Assembly: GCA_030430205.1 (NCBI GenBank)
Contig: JAUIGE010000003.1
Span: 124,001-188,000, forward strand
Origin: Bacteroidia bacterium
GTDB taxonomy: Bacteria; Bacteroidota; Bacteroidia; J057
DNA: 64,000 bases
Direction of reading: 5' to 3'
In this document: positions 15,739 through 25,088 of the stretch, piece by piece
Layout: each line of letters opens with the position of its first letter
Position numbering within the stretch: position 1 is the stretch's first letter
Program-made: the position numbers and the translations under genes
The notes under the pieces: model-generated
Databases searched by the model: none
The model's input: the letters and a program-made list of their open reading frames with translations, nothing else
What the model was told of the DNA's origin: nothing

Positions 15739-15812
15739 GAGGATGGGAGGATGTGCAGATTAGCAGATTCCGGAAATCCTTACATCCTCTCATCTGCTAA
15801 TCCTCTCATCTC
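15737..15812. repeat. AGGATGAGAGGATTAGCAGAT-type inverted repeat
   Basis: The left arm (AGAGGATGGGAGGATGTGCA, GATTAGCAGATT) and right arm (ACATCCTCTCATCTGCTAAT, CCTCTCATCTCC) can pair. The right arm encodes the last 11 residues and stop codon of the minus-strand oxidase gene. Confidence 0.65.
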
Positions 15813-17054
15813 CCCTATCCCCCGACATCCTGCCAATCCCATTGTCAATTCAAATTCCGCCATCATATTGGCGAGGAGTTCGTAGACGCCCTGCTCGCCT
15901 GCGAGTGCAAGCGCATAGGCATAGGGCCGCCCTATGCAGGCGGCTGTGGCTCCCAGGGCCAGGGCCTTGAAGACATCGCTACCGTCGCGTATGCCGCTGT
16001 CCATCAGGACAGGAATCCGTCCATCAATGACCTTGACGACCTCGGGGAGGGCGTCTATGCTGGCGATCGCTCCGCCGACTTGTCGGCCACCATGGTTGGA
16101 GACGATGATACCATCGACCCCATGGTCGAGGGCGAGTTGGGCGTCATCGCCCCGTAGTATGCCTTTGAGCAGGATGGGAAGCTTCGTATGCTCGCGCAAA
16201 AATGACAAATCATCCCAGCTGATAGAAGGACGGGAATAAATATCGGTGAAGGTGCGGACCCCCACCAGCGGAAATTTGGATTGTAGTTTTTGCAAAAAAC
16301 TGCCTCCTCCTTTGTAGTTGGCGACCTGTCTGAAGAAGTTGAACAACTTGCTGAAGGTAAAACCCGGAGGGGTTTCGAGCCCTCCTTTCTCCCAATTTTC
16401 GCGCACGATGCGCTGGAAGACGGGGTCGGAGACATATTGCCCCAGGCCTTTGGCAAAGGAAAAGGGCAGATGCCCCAGGTCGAGGTCCATGGGCCGCCAG
16501 CCCAGCATGGTCGTGTCAAGCGTCACGACGATCGCCTCGCAGCCACAGGCTGCTGCCCGTTGCAAAAAGCTGATCACCAGCTCATCGGATTTGCTCCAGT
16601 AGAGCTGAAACCAGCGGGGGCTGTCGCCCATCTCTGCGCTGCAATCCTCCATAGAAAAAGCCGCCTGATTGGAAAAAATCATCGGAAGCCCCAGCCGCGC
16701 CGCAGCCCTGGCGACGGCTTTGTCCGCTTCTTTGTGGACCAGCTCCAGCGCGCCTATGGGCGCGAGAAAAAGAGGCGAAGGCAACCTCCGCCCAAAGAGC
16801 TCTATGCTCGTATCACGAGTGGAGACATCGCGCAGCATGCGCGGGCGGATGCGCAGCTTGTGAAATCCTTCGCGATTGTTCGCGACAGTGGTCTGCATGC
16901 CGGCACCGCCGGCGATATAGGCGAAGGCGGCCTCGGAGGCCTTTTCGCGGGCGGCAGCTTCGAGCTGGTCGAAGCTCGTGGGGATACGCGGGCGGCGCCC
17001 GCTGAAGCCATCCAGGTAAATTTCTTTTTGTCGGTCGAGTGCGCTGAATTTCAT
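15780..17054 (-). CDS. FMN-dependent alpha-hydroxy-acid oxidizing protein (lactate dehydrogenase/oxidase-like)
   Basis: A 424-residue TIM-barrel flavoenzyme. Seen: FAYIAGGAGMQTT near the N-terminus, RPRMLRDVSTRDTS, LFLAPIGALELVH, a long central insert, then LLKGILRGDDAQLALDHGVDG, the active-site SNHGGRQVGG (catalytic His) and the C-terminal FMN phosphate site GIRDGSDVFKALALGA with CIGRPYAYAL. Closest in layout to lactate 2-monooxygenase/L-lactate dehydrogenase types; the substrate is not certain. The last 11 residues (GEMRGLADERM) are encoded by an intergenic repeat. It starts 38 bp after the end of the response-regulator gene, so it may be the tail of the caspase operon. Confidence 0.85.
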   Translation of the reverse strand: MKFSALDRQKEIYLDGFSGRRPRIPTSFDQLEAAAREKASEAAFAYIAGGAGMQTTVANNREGFHKLRIRPRMLRDVSTRDTSIELFGRRLPSPLFLAPIGALELVHKEADKAVARAAARLGLPMIFSNQAAFSMEDCSAEMGDSPRWFQLYWSKSDELVISFLQRAAACGCEAIVVTLDTTMLGWRPMDLDLGHLPFSFAKGLGQYVSDPVFQRIVRENWEKGGLETPPGFTFSKLFNFFRQVANYKGGGSFLQKLQSKFPLVGVRTFTDIYSRPSISWDDLSFLREHTKLPILLKGILRGDDAQLALDHGVDGIIVSNHGGRQVGGAIASIDALPEVVKVIDGRIPVLMDSGIRDGSDVFKALALGATAACIGRPYAYALALAGEQGVYELLANMMAEFELTMGLAGCRGIGEMRGLADERM

Positions 17055-17092: not shown

Positions 17093-17731
17093 TTAGGGTA
17101 AGGGGTAGCTGCTGTAGCCATTATCTATGCCCCATTTTACGAGGGCTTCCACATTGCTGATGTTCAGTTTTGCCGTGATGTTTTTTTTGTGTCTGGCAAT
17201 CAGCTCTTTGCTTTTGCCCGTCTCTTCTGCTATCTGGGGCACATTCATGCCTCTGCTTATATAGGCCAGGATTTCCTTTTCCTTTTCTGTCAGGTGAACA
17301 AAACCTTTACGAATCATGGCAGCTACCTCATCAGAGTACCTTGTCTCCCCCCGATGGACGATATCTCTGATCGCAGCTGCTAATTTTTCTATCGGCTCAG
17401 ATTTGGTGAAATAGCCATTTACTCCTATTTCTACAGCCCTTTTTACCCTACTGGAAGTTGAATAGCCAGAGAGAATCATGCATTTCGTTTCTGGTTTATC
17501 TGTCTGGATTTTTTGAGCTATTTGTAAACCATCGGCTATTTCGGACTTCCCTCCTAATTGAATATCCAGGATGGCAATATGAATGGGTTGGTTTTTAATT
17601 TTTTGCCAAAATGTAGTCCACTCATACTCCGTGACAAGGATTTCCAGGTCACTTTCTTTGGAAAGCTTTGCTGCCAGGCCTTCGGCCAGGGTTCGGTGAT
17701 CATCCAGGATCGCTACTTTGATGCTAGTCAT
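17093..17731 (-). CDS. Response regulator, receiver plus LuxR-type HTH (third regulator of the locus)
   Basis: 212 residues. Receiver domain: acidic pocket ILDDH (8-12), phospho-acceptor D56 in HIAILDIQLGG, Thr/Ser in ILSGYST and Lys in GYFTKSE. The C-terminal HTH (about 150-205) reads LTEKEKEILAYISRGMNVPQ and SKELIARHKKNITAKLN. It has no kinase gene of its own: it is the second regulator after the 18428-20521 kinase and lies 32 bp behind the 17764-18408 regulator. It is the most diverged of the three, for example in its last residues. Confidence 0.9.
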   Translation of the reverse strand: MTSIKVAILDDHRTLAEGLAAKLSKESDLEILVTEYEWTTFWQKIKNQPIHIAILDIQLGGKSEIADGLQIAQKIQTDKPETKCMILSGYSTSSRVKRAVEIGVNGYFTKSEPIEKLAAAIRDIVHRGETRYSDEVAAMIRKGFVHLTEKEKEILAYISRGMNVPQIAEETGKSKELIARHKKNITAKLNISNVEALVKWGIDNGYSSYPLP

Positions 17732-17763
17732 AGGGAAGAATTTACGATTGGCTACTTTCTGTA

Positions 17764-18408
17764 CTAAAGCTTGTGATATCCATGCTCTATACCCCAGGCG
17801 ACAAGCGCTTCTACATTGTTAATGCCCAACTTTTTCATGACATTTTTTTTGTGGGTCTTAATTACGGCATCGGAGCGGCCTGTTAATTTTTTGATTCTGG
17901 GTACATTGTTTCCCATGCTGATGTATTTCAGAATTTCAATCTCTCTATCTGTAAAGTGGATTTCCGGCTCTTTTTCGCAGGCGATCATGATATTCACTAC
18001 CTTTTGAGAAAAGTAAACCATCTTTTGGCTATGAACTATCCGGATGGCTTTGAGCAATTCTTTGGTAGATTCTTCTTTTAGAAGATAGCCATGAACATTG
18101 GCTTTTTTTGCCCTGCGAATTTCTTCGCAGGTTGCAGAAAGGGAGAGCAAAATGCATTTCATCTCGGGTTGGGTATATTGGAAATATTGAGCGATGTCAA
18201 TGCCATCCTCCACATCTTCCTGTTTGCTGAGATGTATATCCAGGACTGCTATATCAATGGTTTTGTCTTTAACCTGGCTTTTAAAGGTTTCCCAACTATG
18301 ACTGGTTACCAATACTTCAATATCTGATTCTTTTTCTAAAATCGCCTGCAGGCCTTCCAATTGGTTTTTGTGGTCATCGAGAATCGCTAGTTTGATTGGA
18401 GTTTTCAT
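17764..18408 (-). CDS. Response regulator, receiver plus LuxR-type HTH (second regulator)
   Basis: About 214 residues from the ATG at 18408 (MKTPIKLAILDDH); an extension to 18444 would overlap the kinase gene and is not needed. Acidic pocket LDDH, phospho-acceptor D57 in IAVLDIHLSK, switch Ser in LLSLSAT, conserved Lys in GYLLKEES. HTH: FTDREIEILKYISMGNNVP and RSDAVIKTHKKNVMKKLG, then NNVEALVAWGIEHGYHK, nearly the same ending as the 20995-21675 regulator. It starts 19 bp after its cognate kinase gene. Confidence 0.9.
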   Translation of the reverse strand: MKTPIKLAILDDHKNQLEGLQAILEKESDIEVLVTSHSWETFKSQVKDKTIDIAVLDIHLSKQEDVEDGIDIAQYFQYTQPEMKCILLSLSATCEEIRRAKKANVHGYLLKEESTKELLKAIRIVHSQKMVYFSQKVVNIMIACEKEPEIHFTDREIEILKYISMGNNVPRIKKLTGRSDAVIKTHKKNVMKKLGINNVEALVAWGIEHGYHKL

Positions 18409-18427
18409 GAGAAATGGGCGTTTAATA

Positions 18428-20521
18428 TTATGGGTTAAAATCAATCATATAGGCAGTGCCATGTCCGGGGGATGTATCTATCAGGAGAGTTCCTTTGATT
18501 TCGCGGACACGTTCTTTGATATTTTTTATTCCGATCCCTGTATCAGGGCTTGACTCTATTTTTTCCAGGTCAAAGCCTTTGCCATTGTCCTCAATGATCA
18601 GGTTGAGGCCGTCTTCGTTTTGGTTCAGGCTGATAGACAGCTTTGTTGCACCGCTGCTTTTGCGGGCGTTTTCAGCTATTTCGTTGGCGATGGAGAATAG
18701 TTGGTACTTCAAATCGGGCTCCAGAGGGTGGGCGAGCTCTACACTATACACTTCTACTTCAATCTGGCTTGAGGGGTCTTTTTCGATTCTGTTTTTGATT
18801 TGATCAAATAACTGCCGGATCTGGAGTTTTTCCCGCGAATTCTCGGTCATCTCCTGCGAGAGTTCCCGGACATTCTGATAGGTCTTTTCCAGATCTGTCA
18901 TCATTTCTGATATATGCCCTTCAGCTGCTTTTTCGCCCTTTAGTACCTTGTCTGCCCAGCTTTCGATTTCTCGTTTGATCACAATCAAATCTCCTGCTAT
19001 ATGGTCGTGTAGGTTGCGGCCGATCCGCTTTCTTTCCTCCATCATCCCCTGCTGTTGGACTTGCATAAACTCGAAGTTCTGCTTGGCCTGTAGCGCCTGA
19101 TATTCAGCTTCTTTTCGGGCTACTTTTCTTTTTTTGTCGATGTTGAGGTAGGATAAATAAAAGATGGATGCCAAGCCCAGGAGAAATATCAACCCGCCTA
19201 CAAACAGCCAGCGAAATTCCTTTTCAGCCTGGGCCACGCGCAGGGTTTTGCGTCGATTTTCCTCTATTATTTTGGTGGCGGAGATTTCGCTTTCGCTGAG
19301 CAGGTCTTTGTGCTCCCGGTAGCGACGCTCATAGATATAGGCAGAATCTGCTTGATTCGTCCTGGCAAATACCTCCGCAAGGCTACTTGCGATCTCAGCG
19401 CTTTCAAGCGTATATGCATGCTTTTGGGCAAGCCGGTAAGCTGCCGAAAGGTAACTGATAGCTTCCTCATACTTGCCTTCTTCCTGGGCCACACTTCCCA
19501 GGCTGGACAAAACCTCTGCCAGGCGCCGTTCCTGATTTTGCTGCTGATATAAATCTTTTGCCTGTAGAAAATAGCTTTTTGCCGCTTTCAAATTGCCTTC
19601 GTTCAGAAAACTAACCGCCAGGTTGTAGGCATTTAATCCCATGCCTAGGGTATCTCTCAGCGAAGCCTTTAGTTTCTGTATTTTATCATAATAATTACGT
19701 GCCACTGCATTTTTTCCCCGGTCAACCAGGCGCTGAGCCCGGGCTTCCAGGACCATGGCAAAGAAGGCTGTATCGTCCTTGGTCTCTCTTTCCAGCTTGT
19801 CAAAAAGGGAATCAGCTTCCGGGTAATCCAGTTGGGAATAGAGAAGTGCCAGCTCATATTCCGCACTTTGGGTAAAAGCAGGGAAAAAATCCTCCGGCTC
19901 CCTCAAAGCAAGGCTTTGAAGAAAACTACCCATGGCAGCGTCGGGCCTGCCCTGTTGGATGTAGGCTTCGCCTTGAGTTTGAAGCAGCATGCGCTGGTAT
20001 TGTGACGACATGCTGTCGGTCCACTCCGGATGGACGCGCACGATCTGGAGGCCTTCCTCCAGCAAAGGGAAGGCATCTTCCACCCTGCCTCCATAGATAT
20101 GGATGAGGGCGATATTGTTCAGGCTACTCGCTACGCGAGAGCTATTGAGAGGCGAAGCCTCTTTTCGCATCAGCTCCCTTCGCAGGTCAAGGCCCTCCCG
20201 GGCATAAATGAGCGCCTGCTGAAAATCCTCTTTTTTCTGAAATATACTGCCCAGCCTGGTCTTGCTTTCTGCCTGTCCGAAAGTGTAACTGATATTATTG
20301 GATTTTTCCAGTGCCCACATGCTCAGGCATTGGGCATCTTCTAGCTGCCCATCCAACATCAAATAAAAAGCTTCCGTGGTCGCATAGATAATGCTGTCCT
20401 GGAGGGTTTTGAGAGGCTTTTCGGAGGAGAAATAGGGTTGTATGGAAGCAAAATCACAGGCTTGGATCGCTTGAAAAGGAAGAACGAAAAGGCATAATAA
20501 AGAAATGGCAAGGTGTTTCAT
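18428..20521 (-). CDS. TPR-containing sensor histidine kinase (second kinase)
   Basis: 697 residues: signal peptide (1 to about 21), a periplasmic array of tetratricopeptide repeats (about 45-400; e.g. SKTRLGSIFQKKEDFQQAL, NLAVSFLNEGNLKAAKSYF), one transmembrane helix near 432-452 (WLFVGGLIFLLGLASIFYLS), a coiled coil, and a HisKA_3 dimerisation helix with the phospho-His in RIGRNLHDHIAG (about 508). The HATPase domain has NEIAENARK (N box), EDNGKGFD (G1) and GIGIKNIKERV (G2). It is paralogous along its whole length to the kinase at 21678-23801. It should phosphorylate the regulator encoded directly downstream. Confidence 0.9.
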   Translation of the reverse strand: MKHLAISLLCLFVLPFQAIQACDFASIQPYFSSEKPLKTLQDSIIYATTEAFYLMLDGQLEDAQCLSMWALEKSNNISYTFGQAESKTRLGSIFQKKEDFQQALIYAREGLDLRRELMRKEASPLNSSRVASSLNNIALIHIYGGRVEDAFPLLEEGLQIVRVHPEWTDSMSSQYQRMLLQTQGEAYIQQGRPDAAMGSFLQSLALREPEDFFPAFTQSAEYELALLYSQLDYPEADSLFDKLERETKDDTAFFAMVLEARAQRLVDRGKNAVARNYYDKIQKLKASLRDTLGMGLNAYNLAVSFLNEGNLKAAKSYFLQAKDLYQQQNQERRLAEVLSSLGSVAQEEGKYEEAISYLSAAYRLAQKHAYTLESAEIASSLAEVFARTNQADSAYIYERRYREHKDLLSESEISATKIIEENRRKTLRVAQAEKEFRWLFVGGLIFLLGLASIFYLSYLNIDKKRKVARKEAEYQALQAKQNFEFMQVQQQGMMEERKRIGRNLHDHIAGDLIVIKREIESWADKVLKGEKAAEGHISEMMTDLEKTYQNVRELSQEMTENSREKLQIRQLFDQIKNRIEKDPSSQIEVEVYSVELAHPLEPDLKYQLFSIANEIAENARKSSGATKLSISLNQNEDGLNLIIEDNGKGFDLEKIESSPDTGIGIKNIKERVREIKGTLLIDTSPGHGTAYMIDFNP

Positions 20522-20536
20522 GGCTATTTTAGAAGG

Positions 20537-20950
20537 TTATTCGGGGATTTTTTTGATGGGCATTCCAATATTACTTTTGTGTACAACCCGGGCTCTCTTT
20601 TTTTCTGTATCGGTTTTTCCCGAGTCCAGAACCCAGTCTATGAATTCACCCTCCAGGGTGAAAAAAATGTTGAAGACATACTCCTTGTCCTCAATGGCCG
20701 AAAAAGCAGGGAGTGTCACCAGATGTGTAATGGGATCCTCTGCTTCAACCATTTCGTACTCATCTGCCTGAAGGAGTGAGCAATATATATCATAATCCAC
20801 GCCTTCTTCTTGACTAATTTGGGAAGAAACCGGCCCCGCCATGATATTTCCACTTTGAGCTAAATCATGCTCAAGATGGAAGGTATAGGTTTCTGTTCCC
20901 TCCGGATGGAGGATGAATGCGCGTCTTTCCTTGATATGAAATTCTGACAT
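20537..20950 (-). CDS. Small uncharacterised protein, paralogue of the 23813-24217 protein
   Basis: About 137 residues from the ATG at 20950 (MSEFHIKERRAFILHPEGTE). A GTG 48 bases earlier would overlap the preceding regulator gene and is less likely. No signal peptide or membrane helix; pattern of alternating hydrophobic residues suggests a beta-sandwich. It shares order and motifs with the 134-residue protein upstream in the operon: aFILhpEG, Tf.LehDLAqSG, then F.IFF..EGEFIDWVLDSG, and a basic C-terminus VVHKSNIGMPIKK. I do not recognise the family. It sits between the first regulator and the second kinase, mirroring the position of its paralogue before the first kinase. Confidence 0.7.
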   Translation of the reverse strand: MSEFHIKERRAFILHPEGTETYTFHLEHDLAQSGNIMAGPVSSQISQEEGVDYDIYCSLLQADEYEMVEAEDPITHLVTLPAFSAIEDKEYVFNIFFTLEGEFIDWVLDSGKTDTEKKRARVVHKSNIGMPIKKIPE

Positions 20951-20994
20951 AATGTGATGGTGTTTAATGGTGAAATAATGTATGAAAGAGGTCC

Positions 20995-21675
20995 TCACCT
21001 CTTATGATATCCATGCTCAATAGCCCAGACCACCAATGCTTCTACATTGCGGATGCCCAGTTTTTTCATGACGTTTTTCTTATGGGTTCGGATAACAGAT
21101 TCCGCCCAGCCGCTTTCTTTGACAGTCTGCGGCACATTGTGGCCTTTGGCAAAATAGACCAGCACTTCTTCTTCCCTGCGGGTAAGGTTGGGGGCATCAT
21201 CTTCCTCGGGATCTCCTTTCAGGAGAATGTCCATGACAATACGGGAGTAGTAGGTCCTATTGGTGGAGTTAAGGCATTCGATGGCTCGGATAAGTTCCCG
21301 GCTGGTTTCTTCTTTCAGGATATACCCCTCTATCCCAGTCGCCTGTGCCCTTTCTATTTGCTTATAATCTGTATCAAAAGTCATCAGAACAATTTTGCAG
21401 CCGGACTTATGGTCACGCAGGTATTGAGCGATTTCGATGCCATCTACCTCTTCTTCATTCCCATCGTTTCTGTTTAAGTGAATATCTAAAATGAAAATGT
21501 CCACTTCCTGATTTTTGACCTGCGGCCAAAAGGCATCCCAGCTTTGGGCTGCGGCCACGAGATTCAAATTCCTTTCTCTCGAAACTATCGTTTTCAATCC
21601 TTCCAATGTAACAGGATGGTCTTCCAGGATAGCAATATGAATTGTCTTGCTTGTTTTGGCTTTTGATTTAAACAT
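20995..21675 (-). CDS. Response regulator, receiver plus LuxR-type HTH (first regulator)
   Basis: 226 residues. Receiver: acidic pair in ILEDH (17-20), phospho-acceptor D64 in IFILDIHLNRND, switch Thr in LMTFDT, Lys in GYILKEET. The HTH reads LTRREEEVLVYFAKGHNVPQ and ESVIRTHKKNVMKKLG, ending WAIEHGYHKR. It starts two bases after the stop codon of the first kinase, so the two are almost surely a cognate pair. Confidence 0.9.
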   Translation of the reverse strand: MFKSKAKTSKTIHIAILEDHPVTLEGLKTIVSRERNLNLVAAAQSWDAFWPQVKNQEVDIFILDIHLNRNDGNEEEVDGIEIAQYLRDHKSGCKIVLMTFDTDYKQIERAQATGIEGYILKEETSRELIRAIECLNSTNRTYYSRIVMDILLKGDPEEDDAPNLTRREEEVLVYFAKGHNVPQTVKESGWAESVIRTHKKNVMKKLGIRNVEALVVWAIEHGYHKR

Positions 21676-21677
21676 GC

Positions 21678-23801
21678 TTATTTATTTTTTAAGATAAAAA
21701 GGTGAGGAATATCAACAATCACGGACGTCCCTTTGCCAGGGATAGAACTAAATTCGATGCTGCCTTCGAGCTTTTTTTCTACCCGCTTTTTAAGGCTCCC
21801 TAATCCTACGCCCCTATTTTTTGTTCTGCGCAGAACTTTTTCTACATCAAAACCGACCCCATCGTCTTCAATGCTCATATTTAAAGCTTCGCCTTCGCGG
21901 ATAAGCTGAATACTTAATGAAGGAGCCTTGCTGTACTTTTGGGCATTATTTACCAACTCCTGAAGGCATAGGATAAGCTGGAGTTCTTTCTCTTCTTCGA
22001 TGGGTTTATCTATATCGATAAAGTGTATCAGGACCTTCATGCTTGAGATGGCCTCTACCCGATGCTTCAACTCTCTGGCCCAGTCTTCCAGCCCAAAGCC
22101 TGCAAAGGCCTTCTTTGTCAGACCTTTTGTGATATCTTTTAAATCCTGAGTGGCTTTGCCAAGCCATTGGTTGGCCAATGATACAGATTCTTCGATTTCG
22201 GAATGATGGTTCGTTAAAGCATCTTTTACTTCCTGGATTTTGCTTTTGGCAGAACCCAGCAATTGCCCCAGACCATCATGAAGGTCATCAGCGAGGCGCC
22301 CGCGCTCCTGAAAAGTTCCTTTGCGCTGGTATTGCAGATAGGTTTGGGTAACCTCCTTTTCTTTGAGTTTGTAGGCTGCTATTTTCTTGTTTTGAAGGGC
22401 CTGGCGAATGATAAAATAGAGGAGGAACAAAAGGGCCGAGATAATGATGGCTGCGCCTATGTTGATGAGGCGATTTCGCTCCTGCGCATGCGAAAACCGC
22501 TCTGCATGCAACTCTGCCTCGCTGCGATGCGCCTCTATCAACCTGATAGACTCCCGCTCACTGATGCTGACAGCATCTCTGTGTTCTCTGTATAGCCTTT
22601 CATAATGAAAGGCCGAATCCGTTTCTCCCTGCTGACCAAAGAGGTCAGCGAGCTTGCCGGCGAGCTCGACGCTCTTGATCAAATAATGTTGCTGTTGTGA
22701 AAGCTGGTAGCCTTTTCGGAAGTATGCAAGGGCTTGAGCTGTGTTGCCTTCTGCTTCCAGGAGGGTGCCCAGGCTGGAATACAGCTGAGCCAGCCGTCTT
22801 TCCTGCTTTTGATTTTTGTAAAAAAGGACGGCTTCAGCAAAGTGCTTTTTGGCCGTAGTATAATCTCCTTCATTCAAATAAGTGACTCCCAGGTTAAAAT
22901 TGCACAGCCCGATGCCGATGCTGTCATTTAGTTCACGGCGTGTTTTCAGGCTTTTGTAAAAGTAAGGCCTTGCTTCTTCAATTTTATCTGCCTCCAGAAG
23001 CCTTTGGCCTTGGGCACCCTGGACATTGGCCATGAAATGAGCGGAGCCGTTATTTTCCCTTAAGAGCTTATCGAGGAGCGTATCTTCTATTCCCAATTGG
23101 GTGTTCAGCAGGGCCAGCTCGTAGTCCGTCTTCTGTGTATAGGCAGGATTCAAGTCGACAGGCTTAGCTAATGCGAGGCTTTGGTGAAATTTGATGATGG
23201 CAGAATCTGGCTTGTCCAACTGTACAAATGCCGCTCCCTGACTATGCAGGATCGAACGTGTATGCAGATTTTTCTTTTGATCGGAAAAATCAGGGAATTG
23301 AGAGATTGAACTCATCCCTTTATGAAGGAGCTCAAGCGCTTCTTCTGCTTTCCCCAAATATATATGTGGTACAGCAAGGTTGTTATGAATGCCGATATAG
23401 CGATCAATATTCCGTTCTGAGGGTTCCGTTTCGGCCAGGTATTTCCGTATATCCATTGCCTTCTGAAAATGGAAGATGGCCTGCTCGTACTTTTCCTGAT
23501 TTTGATAAATGCCACCCAGCCTGCTGTGGCTTTCTGACCGTCCGAATAGGTAACTGATCTTTTCAGATTTTTGTAATGCCCAATCACTGAGGCACTTAGC
23601 CTCTTTGTTTTTCTTTTCAATCAGCAAATAAAAGGCCTGTAAAGTGATCCAATTTATGCTATCATATACGCTTTCTATTTTCTCCCCTTTTTCAAGGGCT
23701 TTCGCAATATAAGGACTGAGGGATTCCGCATCGCAGGCCAGTATACTGGCAGGCATACTGAGGAAGCAGAACAAACAGAAGGTGAGATGGGAGACTTTCA
23801 T
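21678..23801 (-). CDS. TPR-containing sensor histidine kinase (first kinase)
   Basis: 707 residues: signal peptide (1 to about 22), periplasmic TPR array (about 50-400; SHSRLGGIYQNQEKYEQAI, NLAVPHIYLGKAEEALELL, NLGVTYLNEGDYTTAKKHF), a transmembrane helix (IGAAIIISALLFLLYFII, about 447-465), and a HisKA_3 helix with phospho-His in RGRLADDLHDGLGQ (about 510). HATPase motifs: ELVNNAQKYS, EDDGVGFD, RGVGLGSLKKRV and PGKGTSV. The sensor is therefore outside the inner membrane and output goes to the regulator two bases downstream. Paralogue of 18428-20521. Confidence 0.92.
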   Translation of the reverse strand: MKVSHLTFCLFCFLSMPASILACDAESLSPYIAKALEKGEKIESVYDSINWITLQAFYLLIEKKNKEAKCLSDWALQKSEKISYLFGRSESHSRLGGIYQNQEKYEQAIFHFQKAMDIRKYLAETEPSERNIDRYIGIHNNLAVPHIYLGKAEEALELLHKGMSSISQFPDFSDQKKNLHTRSILHSQGAAFVQLDKPDSAIIKFHQSLALAKPVDLNPAYTQKTDYELALLNTQLGIEDTLLDKLLRENNGSAHFMANVQGAQGQRLLEADKIEEARPYFYKSLKTRRELNDSIGIGLCNFNLGVTYLNEGDYTTAKKHFAEAVLFYKNQKQERRLAQLYSSLGTLLEAEGNTAQALAYFRKGYQLSQQQHYLIKSVELAGKLADLFGQQGETDSAFHYERLYREHRDAVSISERESIRLIEAHRSEAELHAERFSHAQERNRLINIGAAIIISALLFLLYFIIRQALQNKKIAAYKLKEKEVTQTYLQYQRKGTFQERGRLADDLHDGLGQLLGSAKSKIQEVKDALTNHHSEIEESVSLANQWLGKATQDLKDITKGLTKKAFAGFGLEDWARELKHRVEAISSMKVLIHFIDIDKPIEEEKELQLILCLQELVNNAQKYSKAPSLSIQLIREGEALNMSIEDDGVGFDVEKVLRRTKNRGVGLGSLKKRVEKKLEGSIEFSSIPGKGTSVIVDIPHLFILKNK

Positions 23802-23812
23802 AAAAGATAGAG

Positions 23813-24217
23813 TTAACCGCCCTTGGGTCCCAAAGGCATATTGATGATATTACTATGTATGACTTCAGCTTTCTCCTTTGGAGGCGTACCTGAGCCCGAA
23901 GCCCAGTCAATGCTATCATCATTCTCCTTGACGAAAACCCTGAAAACATACAGATGTTCCGGATCTGACTCGGGCACAAAGCCGTTAAGAAATGCATCAT
24001 GCGTAACAGAAACGGTCACATTTGGGAGCCCCCCGCTTTTTGTCACCTTGCAGGTTATTTTGAAATCACAATCTGACTGGTCACCCTCGACTATCGGGTC
24101 TCCATCCCGAATATAGCCACTGTGGTTGATGTCATGGGTGAGATTGAGGTAATAATCACCCTCGGACTCATCGTATAAAATGAATTCGATGCGGTCGGAA
24201 ATTTCATAAGTAGACAT
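23813..24217 (-). CDS. Small uncharacterised protein encoded directly after the caspase
   Basis: 134 residues, acidic, no signal peptide or membrane helix. Motifs shared with the 20537-20950 protein: RIEFILYDESEG, YLNLTHDINHSG, a central beta-rich part, FRVFVKENDDSIDWASGSG and VIHSNIINMPLGPKGG at the C-terminus. It begins 11 bases after the caspase gene and ends 11 bases before the first kinase, so co-expression with both is very likely. Family not recognised; a substrate, inhibitor or adaptor of the caspase would fit the position but nothing in the sequence proves it. Confidence 0.72.
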   Translation of the reverse strand: MSTYEISDRIEFILYDESEGDYYLNLTHDINHSGYIRDGDPIVEGDQSDCDFKITCKVTKSGGLPNVTVSVTHDAFLNGFVPESDPEHLYVFRVFVKENDDSIDWASGSGTPPKEKAEVIHSNIINMPLGPKGG

Positions 24218-24228
24218 AGTGTAAGGGG

Positions 24229-25005
24229 TTATAGGTAAAAAGGTTTTTCAAGGAGAAACTTTTGATTGTTGTTGCCGCTTGCCTGGTTGGGCTTGTAGTA
24301 GGGGTGTGAATTCTTTTTGAGTTTGCGGTAAAACAATTGGTTGTTCAACTTCCCCTGGTCTTGGTGCCAAAGCCTGATCAGGGTTTGGGTGAAAAGGCCG
24401 TTCCCTGCCAGTTCATGAGGGCTTACTGCTGCCCAGAAGAGAGTTGAAGCTTTTAGCTTTTGGCACTTGTCAAAGCCTGAATAATTCTTAATCCGGCTCT
24501 CTGGACGGAACTTCCGAAGGTCAAGCTTCAGTGGAGCTGATGGGCCTTCCAGCTTGTCCATCCCTCCACTATGACAACTGTCAATGATGATATGAATTTT
24601 GGCGCCTTCTACCGCCTGGCAGAGATGGTAATAGAATACATCGTCCAGGAGGATATCGTCATAAAAACAGAGAAGCTCATCCATTCCATCGAAGGGTTCA
24701 TCATCCTTGAACATGACATTATTTGATTGGCCGCCATGGCCGGAGAAGCTGATGACAAGCAAATCGCCGGCTGCCAGTCGGGCGATGTTTTTTTCCAGTA
24801 AATCTACAAAAGCTTCGCGGGTCGCCTTTTCATTCGTCCGAAGAAATACTTCTGTAAAACCTTGCTGACGAGTGATCTCAGCGAGACCCTCTGCATCTTT
24901 CACACTATATTTAAGGGGTTCTACTTCTCTGAAGTATTTTTCAACATAATTGCTGTCATTCACCTTGTCGAGCCCAAAATGTATTGCAAATCCTTTAGTA
25001 GCCAT
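24229..25005 (-). CDS. Caspase-family (peptidase C14) protease
   Basis: 258 residues, a single p20/p10-type domain. The N-terminus AIHFGLDKVNDSNY matches the start of bacterial caspase-like proteins; the catalytic dyad is H90 (SFSGHGGQ) and C144 (IIDSCHSGG); D109 and E110 before LLCFYDD fit the acidic pocket of Arg/Lys-specific metacaspase/orthocaspase types. The Lys/Arg-rich stretch after C144 (LDLRKFRPESRIK) would be a natural self-cleavage linker. There is no signal peptide, so it should act in the cytoplasm. It is the first gene of a compact eight-gene minus-strand operon with two TPR kinases and three regulators. Confidence 0.9.
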   Translation of the reverse strand: MATKGFAIHFGLDKVNDSNYVEKYFREVEPLKYSVKDAEGLAEITRQQGFTEVFLRTNEKATREAFVDLLEKNIARLAAGDLLVISFSGHGGQSNNVMFKDDEPFDGMDELLCFYDDILLDDVFYYHLCQAVEGAKIHIIIDSCHSGGMDKLEGPSAPLKLDLRKFRPESRIKNYSGFDKCQKLKASTLFWAAVSPHELAGNGLFTQTLIRLWHQDQGKLNNQLFYRKLKKNSHPYYKPNQASGNNNQKFLLEKPFYL

Positions 25006-25060: not shown

Positions 25061-25088
25061 CAAAGTTATGATAATTGAATATCCCAAA
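25061..25088 (-). promoter_or_regulatory. Candidate promoter of the caspase/two-component operon
   Basis: On the minus strand TTTG (25088-25085) is followed after 16 bases by TAACTTTG (25068-25061), matching the Bacteroidota -7 consensus TAnnTTTG; the spacer is slightly short. It lies about 55 bp upstream of the caspase ATG, in the only gap before the operon. Confidence 0.4.

Follow-up and report, generated by a model that had tools for sequence, protein, structure and literature searches.

We analyzed a 64,000-nucleotide stretch of the genome of a Bacteroidia bacterium (contig JAUIGE010000003.1, positions 124,001 to 188,000; hereafter the window), in which eight minus-strand genes between 17093 and 25005 encode a caspase-family protease, two small proteins, two histidine kinases with tetratricopeptide repeats (TPR) and three response regulators. 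Their order is caspase, small protein A, kinase 1, regulator 1, small protein B, kinase 2, regulator 2 and regulator 3, with successive intergenic gaps of 11, 11, 2, 44, 15, 19 and 32 bp. All open reading frames (ORFs) are present from ATG to stop, and the reading frames and measured gaps bear out the initial annotation of this DNA, which had described an eight-gene minus-strand operon of this order with gaps of 2–44 bp. The features of the operon are as follows.

24229–25005, minus strand: caspase (Peptidase_C14), 258 amino acids (aa), short and stand-alone, without transmembrane (TM) segment or signal
24736–24738, minus strand: codon of the catalytic His90 of the caspase, a residue in SFSGHGGQ
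24574–24576, minus strand: codon of the catalytic Cys144 of the caspase, a residue in IDSCHSGG, with Asp two positions before it (C-2)
23813–24217, minus strand: small protein A, of 134 aa, from an as yet unnamed family of small proteins, without TM segment or signal peptide
23816–23878, minus strand: C-terminal tail of small protein A, a basic, His-containing stretch followed by MP (KEKAEVIHSNIINMP...), a weak form of the motif assigned by eye
21678–23801, minus strand: kinase 1, 707 aa, with a signal-peptide-like N-terminus, a TPR region, one TM segment, HisKA_3 (His508) and HATPase_c
20995–21675, minus strand: regulator 1, 226 aa, Response_reg (Asp64) and GerE
20537–20950, minus strand: small protein B, 137 aa from ATG; the longest ORF begins at a GTG, 20998
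20540–20602, minus strand: C-terminal tail of small protein B, KKRARVVHKSNIGMP...
18428–20521, minus strand: kinase 2, 697 aa, architecture as in kinase 1, His505
17764–18408, minus strand: regulator 2, 214 aa, Response_reg (Asp57) and GerE; the longest ORF begins at a TTG, 18444
17093–17731, minus strand: regulator 3, 212 aa, Response_reg (Asp56) and GerE, 48% identical to regulator 2

The protease matches Peptidase_C14 in Pfam (E 1.6e-13; 51.3 bits against a curated cut-off of 21.4) and retains intact the catalytic dyad proposed for it, H90 in SFSGHGGQ and C144 in IDSCHSGG; by score and dyad alike it belongs to this family. A simple hydropathy scan finds no TM segment or signal in the caspase or in small proteins A and B, and Pfam returns no match for the small proteins. 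Both kinases combine TPR, HisKA_3 and HATPase_c domains, and the three regulators combine Response_reg with GerE (Pfam). The phospho-acceptors are present (His508 in kinase 1, His505 in kinase 2, and Asp64, Asp57 and Asp56 in regulators 1, 2 and 3), such that domains, phospho-His and phospho-Asp together identify these proteins as HisKA_3/LuxR-type two-component proteins. The kinases carry a signal-peptide-like N-terminus and a single TM segment, at approximately residues 443–470 in kinase 1 and 435–460 in kinase 2 (hydropathy scan).

Small proteins A and B are 32% identical (E 2e-17), and the two kinases 36% (441 bits, with the next best match in the 13 genomes of the family at 111.5 bits); a two-kinase profile gave no further match above 180 bits in 395 genomes of the class. 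The TPR halves of the kinases are 40.5% identical and the kinase halves 26%, so the sensor side is better kept than the kinase core. The likeness of the TPR regions looks as if one common ligand had to be kept by both. Among the regulators, 2 and 3 share 48% identity and 1 and 2 share 44%, whereas a fused regulator of another caspase operon in the same genome comes closer to regulator 1, at 52%, which argues that the regulators were not simply duplicated with the unit. The duplication of a small protein–kinase–regulator unit, as originally proposed, thus stands for the small proteins and kinases, but the regulators have a different history.

The module recurs elsewhere, in loci designated here by L-numbers. 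A small protein, a HisKA_3 kinase and a LuxR-type regulator follow one another, with a caspase no more than 8 kb from the regulator, in 12 of the 13 small-protein loci (11 genomes), a count that leaves out the small ORFs of L084, L085, L086, L191, L194 and L197; the exception is ended by a contig end. Three loci were reached by the kinase alone and seven by the small-protein profile alone. In seven of the 13 (the window, L203, L205, L206, L239, L243 and L247) the order is short caspase, small protein, kinase, regulator. L203, L205 and L206, from other families, each carry at least one further caspase besides the upstream short one. The regulator comes straight after the kinase in L203 and L206; in L205, which has two small proteins, a caspase-nSTAND gene separates them. 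L083 runs small protein, kinase, regulator, caspase, small protein, kinase, regulator, comprising two units and one caspase of very different sequences. The small protein of L203, missed by rough gene calling, was added by hand, and the regulator of L242 was assigned by eye.

The small-protein profiles were searched in overlapping sets, profile A5 in the 395 class genomes and profile A9, built with L235 and L236 among its members, in 35 and 87 genomes; these searches alone turned up 11 further places, spread over 10 loci. Three matches lie in giant proteins of 2105, 1219 and 1517 aa (L237, L238, L244) and were dropped as chance. Stand-alone small ORFs were found in seven new loci (L235, L236, L239, L240, L241, L242 and L243), and a kinase gene is next downstream in all seven. 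Six of these loci have a caspase and L240 shows none. L235 and L241 carry the caspase approximately 70–130 bp past the regulator, and in L242 it likewise lies past the regulator. L239 and L243 have one caspase there and another before the small protein, and in L236 the distance from the regulator is 7.4 kb, inside the same-strand run.

This recurrence has to be set against the abundance of caspases in these genomes. The source genome (7.24 Mb, 80 contigs) has 11 C14 matches and the 13 family genomes together have 103; among 65 C14 places read (the window's excluded), a kinase match lies within 5 kb in nine, some of them weak or on the opposite strand. Such numbers favor the view that there is no functional system here, only two-component units and immune genes sharing islands in genomes where caspases are common. 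We regard this as very improbable. The gene order of the module is fixed and its gaps are mostly short despite very divergent sequences, and the small-protein searches predicted the neighbors. Moreover, among 40 loci selected by kinase similarity, 27 of which have a TPR-kinase by hidden Markov models (HMMs), small protein and caspase occur in the same three and neither occurs in the other 37 (Fisher 1e-4). This set leaves out L083–L087, which had been fetched earlier for a nearby caspase; with them added, four loci have both, none the small protein only, four the caspase only and 37 neither (Fisher 5e-4). The four kinase loci fetched via their caspase (L084–L087), however, also lack a recognised small protein. 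Forty random control loci of 17 kb contain no caspase and no TPR-kinase above 60 bits (one weak TPR-kinase, L160); all come from the window's family (five genomes) and are unmatched to the other families.

The caspases of the module fall into distinct types. In a quick maximum-likelihood tree of 80 caspases (long rows flagged; the L247 caspase not included), the window caspase groups with the upstream short caspases of L203, L205, L206, L239 and L243 (SH-aLRT 97), and the second, downstream caspase type forms a separate group of 10 members plus two from L088 (support 98). Five short caspases are 25–33% identical to that of the window. Clustering by type was as tight in none of 500 shuffles. 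The catalytic His and Cys are kept in all 20 caspases compared, a set outside which L247 falls. A profile of six short caspases, searched in the 395 class genomes, gave L247 as the 13th locus, with the same gene order, and also matched two close clade members outside the module (L245, L246) and fused or more distant caspases (L248–L251). In a scan of named genomes the caspase gave a single match, in Microvirga (29%, E 1e-9).

Several further features of these proteases were observed. The L247 short caspase (L247:2452-3237) keeps His and Cys, with the CHSG loop changed to CCGD, and L247 is the only short-caspase locus whose small protein has neither of two features described below, the basic tail and an (R/M)P end. 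At L245:6222-9341 a papain-family (C1) protease gene is followed, 24 bp on, by a short-clade caspase. The downstream caspases of L083, L085, L203 and L206 (313–336 aa) have in common a C-terminal stretch resembling LVxPxxxxMYxAAxxSxxCxLTxxGxxYW (by eye), which the window caspase lacks.

The proposed small-protein family is defined by a length of 111–138 aa, a gene position immediately before that of a HisKA_3 kinase, a central His, a C-terminal (R/M)P and a match to the profile of other loci; the window proteins show these traits, small protein B being joined via small protein A. In a leave-one-locus-out HMM test on 2153 sequences, with ranking among non-training proteins, the left-out members ranked first for L203 (E 3e-31), L206 (2e-27), L205 (7e-18 and 4e-17), L083 (2e-7 and 7e-5), L236 (3e-6), L235 (1e-5) and window protein A (1.7e-4). 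Profile comparison links A6 to A7 at 87%, A6 to the profile of the window small proteins (A1) at 36% (E 4e-4) and A7 to A1 at 0.8%. Searched in the 395 class genomes, the two-row small-protein profile found only its own genome, and small protein A gave no match to plasmids and phages at E up to 1. None of ten family members matches a PADLOC defence protein at E up to 1, and Pfam gives no significant match among the same number, only five weak ones, each in one member of ten (E 0.039–0.22, including Ig-like and PEGA), which at best hint at a beta-sandwich. A match of profile A1 to the PP7 coat protein (E 4.6e-5, in two weak repeats) was taken as a chance product of a two-row profile; with the ten-row profile, only RbmA and other weak matches were left (E 0.055–1.4). 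A fold prediction for small protein A from the two-row alignment A1 was unusable (mean predicted local distance difference test score 33).

Other small ORFs were seen at related positions. ORFs of 141 and 142 aa at L084:2398-2823 and L086:12738-13166 lie by a TPR-kinase, a regulator and caspases of 666–684 aa; they have in common an acidic C-terminal tail, GVEE(x)DDDRxG, and are either related or analogous to the small proteins. At L085:4571-5143 two small ORFs (83 and 92 aa) precede a kinase, a regulator and a caspase, and the second ends in VMPL, resembling the MP tail of the window small proteins. These ORFs of L084, L086 and L085 were left out of the family: profile A8 links to A6 at only 8% (E 0.004), and the L085 pair do not match each other. 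At L191:6403-6882, L194:9993-11077 and L197:10306-10773, small ORFs precede TPR-kinases; the stretch read shows no caspase, and some of the ORFs have a KPxxH-like N-terminus. The small protein–kinase–regulator unit may extend more widely than its link to caspases.

What, then, do the small proteins do? The initial annotation had cast them as substrates, inhibitors or adaptors. They are encoded directly upstream of the kinase gene in all 13 loci (the L240 kinase has only its TPR part on the contig, and for that of L242 a TPR match is absent at 1e-3 and weak without filters) and beside a short caspase in seven; the constant partner is thus the kinase rather than the caspase, which makes an adaptor role more likely, as far as gene arrangement can indicate, than that of a mere substrate. 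Small proteins and kinases are matched two to two in the window and in L083, which is of the same genus, and stand at two to one in L205 and, on the part of the locus seen, in L240. The possible tie to the caspase lies in the tail. A basic, His-containing stretch before the (R/M)P end is found in six of the seven short-caspase loci and in none of the six others (Fisher 0.005; 0.015 without the cut locus); both the dibasic motif and the (R/M)P tail were defined by eye after the sequences had been seen. The stretch is absent in L247, is present in one of the two small proteins of L205 and is weak in window protein A. A primary tie of the small proteins to the caspase is thus not supported; it is only the basic tail that tracks the short caspase.

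A rival explanation takes that proposal at its word: the small proteins would be chiefly caspase substrates or inhibitors in a stress pathway, with the kinases setting only the level of expression. It can point to small protein A lying 11 bp past the caspase, to the short caspase adjoining the small protein in 7 of 13 loci and to the basic stretch that accompanies it, and it has precedents, since the TPR-CHAT protease Csx29 cleaves the sigma-factor inhibitor Csx30 (PMC10028731, in excerpt), and MaOC1 cuts an antitoxin (PMC7935541, in excerpt). It accounts less well for the six loci where small proteins occur without a short caspase, always by a kinase, for the small-like ORFs before TPR-kinases of L191, L194 and L197, where the stretch read has no caspase, and for the 2:2 pairing of small proteins with kinases in the window and L083. 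We judge this explanation unlikely.

The residues around the catalytic cysteine bear on the same question. The C-2 position, which we take to be part of an Arg/Lys pocket and so to bear on orthocaspase-type cleavage after Arg or Lys, is Asp in the short caspases of the window (Asp142), L205, L239 and L247, Ser in L203 and L243, and Asn in L206.

The neighbors of the module suggest in which process it acts. Some neighbors of ten loci (L203, L205, L206, L235, L236, L239, L241, L242, L243 and L247) were scanned with Pfam, and genes for TIR, TIR-STING or cyclic oligonucleotide-based antiphage signaling (CBASS) proteins were found in six: L203 (a ThsB-type TIR), L206 and L243 (TIR), L235, L236 and L242. 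In L235 (3938-9113) a small protein, a kinase, a regulator and a caspase are followed by TIR-STING, adjacent genes being −1 to 70 bp apart and the TIR-STING gene lying 3 bp past the caspase. The 12-kb same-strand run of L236 (2176-14637) comprises a small protein, a kinase, a regulator, TPR-S1, a PIN-domain protein, two TIR proteins, a caspase, a ThsB-type TIR and 8xMP. L242 (1611-8720) reads in one direction from small protein, kinase, regulator and caspase into a CBASS core, with a SMODS nucleotidyltransferase 4 bp past the caspase and a SAVED protein a further 54 bp on. L205 has the caspase-nSTAND1, and L239, L241 and L247, with two or three proteins scanned per locus, gave no TIR, STING or CBASS genes. 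TIR, TIR-STING, CBASS and nSTAND-caspase genes beside the module point to immunity. Of the stress- or envelope-sensing pathway first proposed to control a cytoplasmic caspase, the envelope-type kinase sensor and a caspase without TM segment or signal hold up; 'stress' is too general.

Immunity is also suggested by the kinship of regulator 1. Among 2150 proteins of 141 loci (fetched proteins only, not the whole genome), its nearest relative is the receiver-GerE-GerE part of a 1401-aa EAD11 protein of the same genome (L099:2230-6435). In a tree of 44 regulators the two are sisters (98), within a clade that includes regulators 2 and 3 (100). The operon at L099:2230-9025 encodes a caspase-iSTAND protein (the iSTAND match at 24.2 bits against a cut-off of 24), a MoxR-like ATPase and the 1401-aa protein ending in receiver-GerE-GerE-EAD11, and has the look of an iSTAND-type ternary system; the MoxR ATPase and the vWA domain in the 1401-aa protein were assigned by eye. 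Judged by this kinship, the window brings a regulator of the conflict-operon kind together with kinases and a caspase.

These two lines of evidence also bear on a circuit of non-lethal regulatory proteolysis, in which the caspase would trim the small protein or the kinase and so tune an envelope response, such as cell wall or secretion, without any role in immunity. The window's surroundings suit such a circuit: by Pfam its neighbors are a PorV-like protein (just under cut-off), itself suggestive of the Bacteroidota, a TonB receptor, a flavin mononucleotide (FMN)-dependent dehydrogenase and an S13 peptidase (D-Ala-D-Ala carboxypeptidase), the first, second and fourth of which are envelope genes, and kinase proteolysis is a known control step (PMC6237974, in excerpt). 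With TIR, TIR-STING or CBASS genes beside the module in six of the ten other loci scanned, and with regulator 1 as sister to a regulator of a conflict-type operon, we find it distinctly improbable.

On balance, we somewhat favor the interpretation that operons of this class are an undescribed immune or cell-death cassette under two-component control. The two membrane kinases would act as sensors with extracytoplasmic TPR domains, answering a disturbance of the envelope such as phage attack or lysis of neighboring cells, and would phosphorylate the LuxR-type regulators. These in turn may raise expression of the operon, and perhaps also of its caspase-iSTAND relative in this genome. For the small protein we propose the role of a cytoplasmic adaptor, its body tied to the kinase–regulator unit and its variable C-terminal tail fitted to the effector of the locus. 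In the window that effector would be the short caspase, which may bind or cut the basic tail and, when active, would cleave cellular targets.

Several observations weigh against this interpretation. No TIR, STING or CBASS genes were found in the window operon or its four scanned neighbors, and immune genes gather in islands, so neighborhood alone can mislead. The module is rare: A5 matches in 7 of 395 class genomes (leaving out two giant-protein matches), and A9 does so in two other families, with 5 of 35 genomes in one and 3 of 87 in the other (the latter leaving out one giant-protein match). Caspases lie by TPR-kinases without a recognised small protein in L084–L087, and two close clade caspases, L245 and L246, lack a recognised small protein or kinase. 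The link of the window small proteins to the other groups is weak by profile (36%; 0.8%), and in the leave-one-locus-out test window protein B came at E 0.2, behind two unrelated proteins. The basic-tail counts are not independent, since L203, L206 and L243 belong to one genus, and with the motif also drawn post hoc, the link between tail and caspase is a lead only. It is these same three loci, where C-2 is not Asp, whose small proteins have the strongest basic tails, which suggests docking rather than cutting there, or another specificity. In the 12 other genomes of the family no close homologue of the small protein was found, nor one of the caspase, whose best match there was partial (31%, E 6e-8). 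A caspase unlinked to the module in relatives had been named at the outset as grounds for abandoning the idea, and at the level of orthologues that is the situation, with no close homologues in these 12 genomes and L245 and L246 among other genes. Read alone, the negative initial homologue searches would refute the finding; the wider family emerged only after the kinase loci were read. In other families of the class, a neighborhood search of the kind that had been suggested again finds the caspase, small protein, kinase and regulator linked.

A comparison with known systems supports the initial remark that none of this composition has been described: we found no caspase with a TPR-kinase, a regulator and a small protein in the literature covered, outside which subscription papers mostly fall. 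A survey of prokaryotic caspase operons reports signalling, sensor and regulatory domains in 23 operons, and its section 13 does not name the present set (PMC3501461, in excerpt). Kaur et al. (2020) describe ternary systems in which, in the excerpted text, the vWA effectors include receiver domains and no histidine kinases (PMC7159879); the available part of the 2021 sequel likewise has receivers independent of kinases (PMC8195603). The iSTAND/VMAP (MoxR-vWA) ternary systems resemble the window in having caspases as the peptidase part, receivers among the effectors and a conflict setting (PMC7159879, in excerpt), and the L099 operon of the same genome holds regulator 1's nearest relative among the compared proteins; however, no MoxR, vWA, iSTAND or VMAP match was found in the eight window proteins (E up to 0.1) or the four neighbors. 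In the EACC1-caspase two-gene system a small protein gene adjoins the caspase gene as well, but EACC1 has one TM segment (PMC7159879, in excerpt), whereas the window small proteins have none and the window caspase reaches 19.6 of the 140 bits required by the model of EACC1-associated caspases. Type III-E Craspase (Csx29/Csx30/CASP-sigma) likewise pairs a caspase-like protease with a dedicated partner and transcription control, but through a CHAT protease, RNA-guided activation and a sigma factor (PMC10028731, in excerpt), none of which was found in the window operon; the eight window proteins gave no match to a CHAT protease or Cas7-11. CBASS and TIR-STING share gene runs with the small protein–kinase–regulator–caspase unit in L242 and L235, respectively, whereas the window operon and its scanned neighbors have no nucleotidyltransferase, SAVED, STING or TIR match. 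Among stand-alone bacterial caspases, GSU0716 (PDB 3bij) is the best relative of solved structure (E 8.4e-24). The best NCBIfam matches of the kinases and regulators are MctS/MctR and other HisKA_3-NarL-type pairs, but all lie far under the curated cut-offs. The effector, a caspase, is of a known kind; the control and the proposed adaptor are not.

Two further features concern the limits of the transcript.

25061–25068, minus strand: candidate Bacteroidota-type −7 element TAACTTTG, upstream of the caspase; weak, its pattern not exceeding chance frequency in the window
15780–17054, minus strand: FMN-dependent dehydrogenase, 38 bp past regulator 3 and possibly co-transcribed

The consensus behind the TAACTTTG assignment is the one we take to be the −7 consensus of this group, and promoter and terminator scans of the window gave results near chance level. 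The dehydrogenase gene is on the same strand, 38 bp past regulator 3, so the transcript may run beyond regulator 3.

A bolder and more doubtful proposal, which we advance tentatively, is that these operons constitute their own class of immune systems, with an envelope-sensing two-component pair, a dedicated adaptor with an exchangeable C-terminal tail and interchangeable death effectors (short or second caspase, TIR, TIR-STING, CBASS). If true, this would be a bacterial counterpart of receptor–adaptor–caspase signalling, with histidine kinases replacing sensors of the nucleotide-binding leucine-rich repeat (NLR) type, and would supply the histidine-kinase input so far missing for the receivers of caspase conflict systems. 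To our knowledge, bacterial caspases are numerous and their switches mostly unknown. This operon class offers a candidate caspase switch in the form of an envelope-sensing two-component pair and ties it, together with a small-protein family without significant Pfam or PADLOC match, to TIR, STING and CBASS genes. It thereby opens to direct test both the path from an envelope signal to caspase activation and the existence of kinase partners for the receivers of caspase conflict systems.

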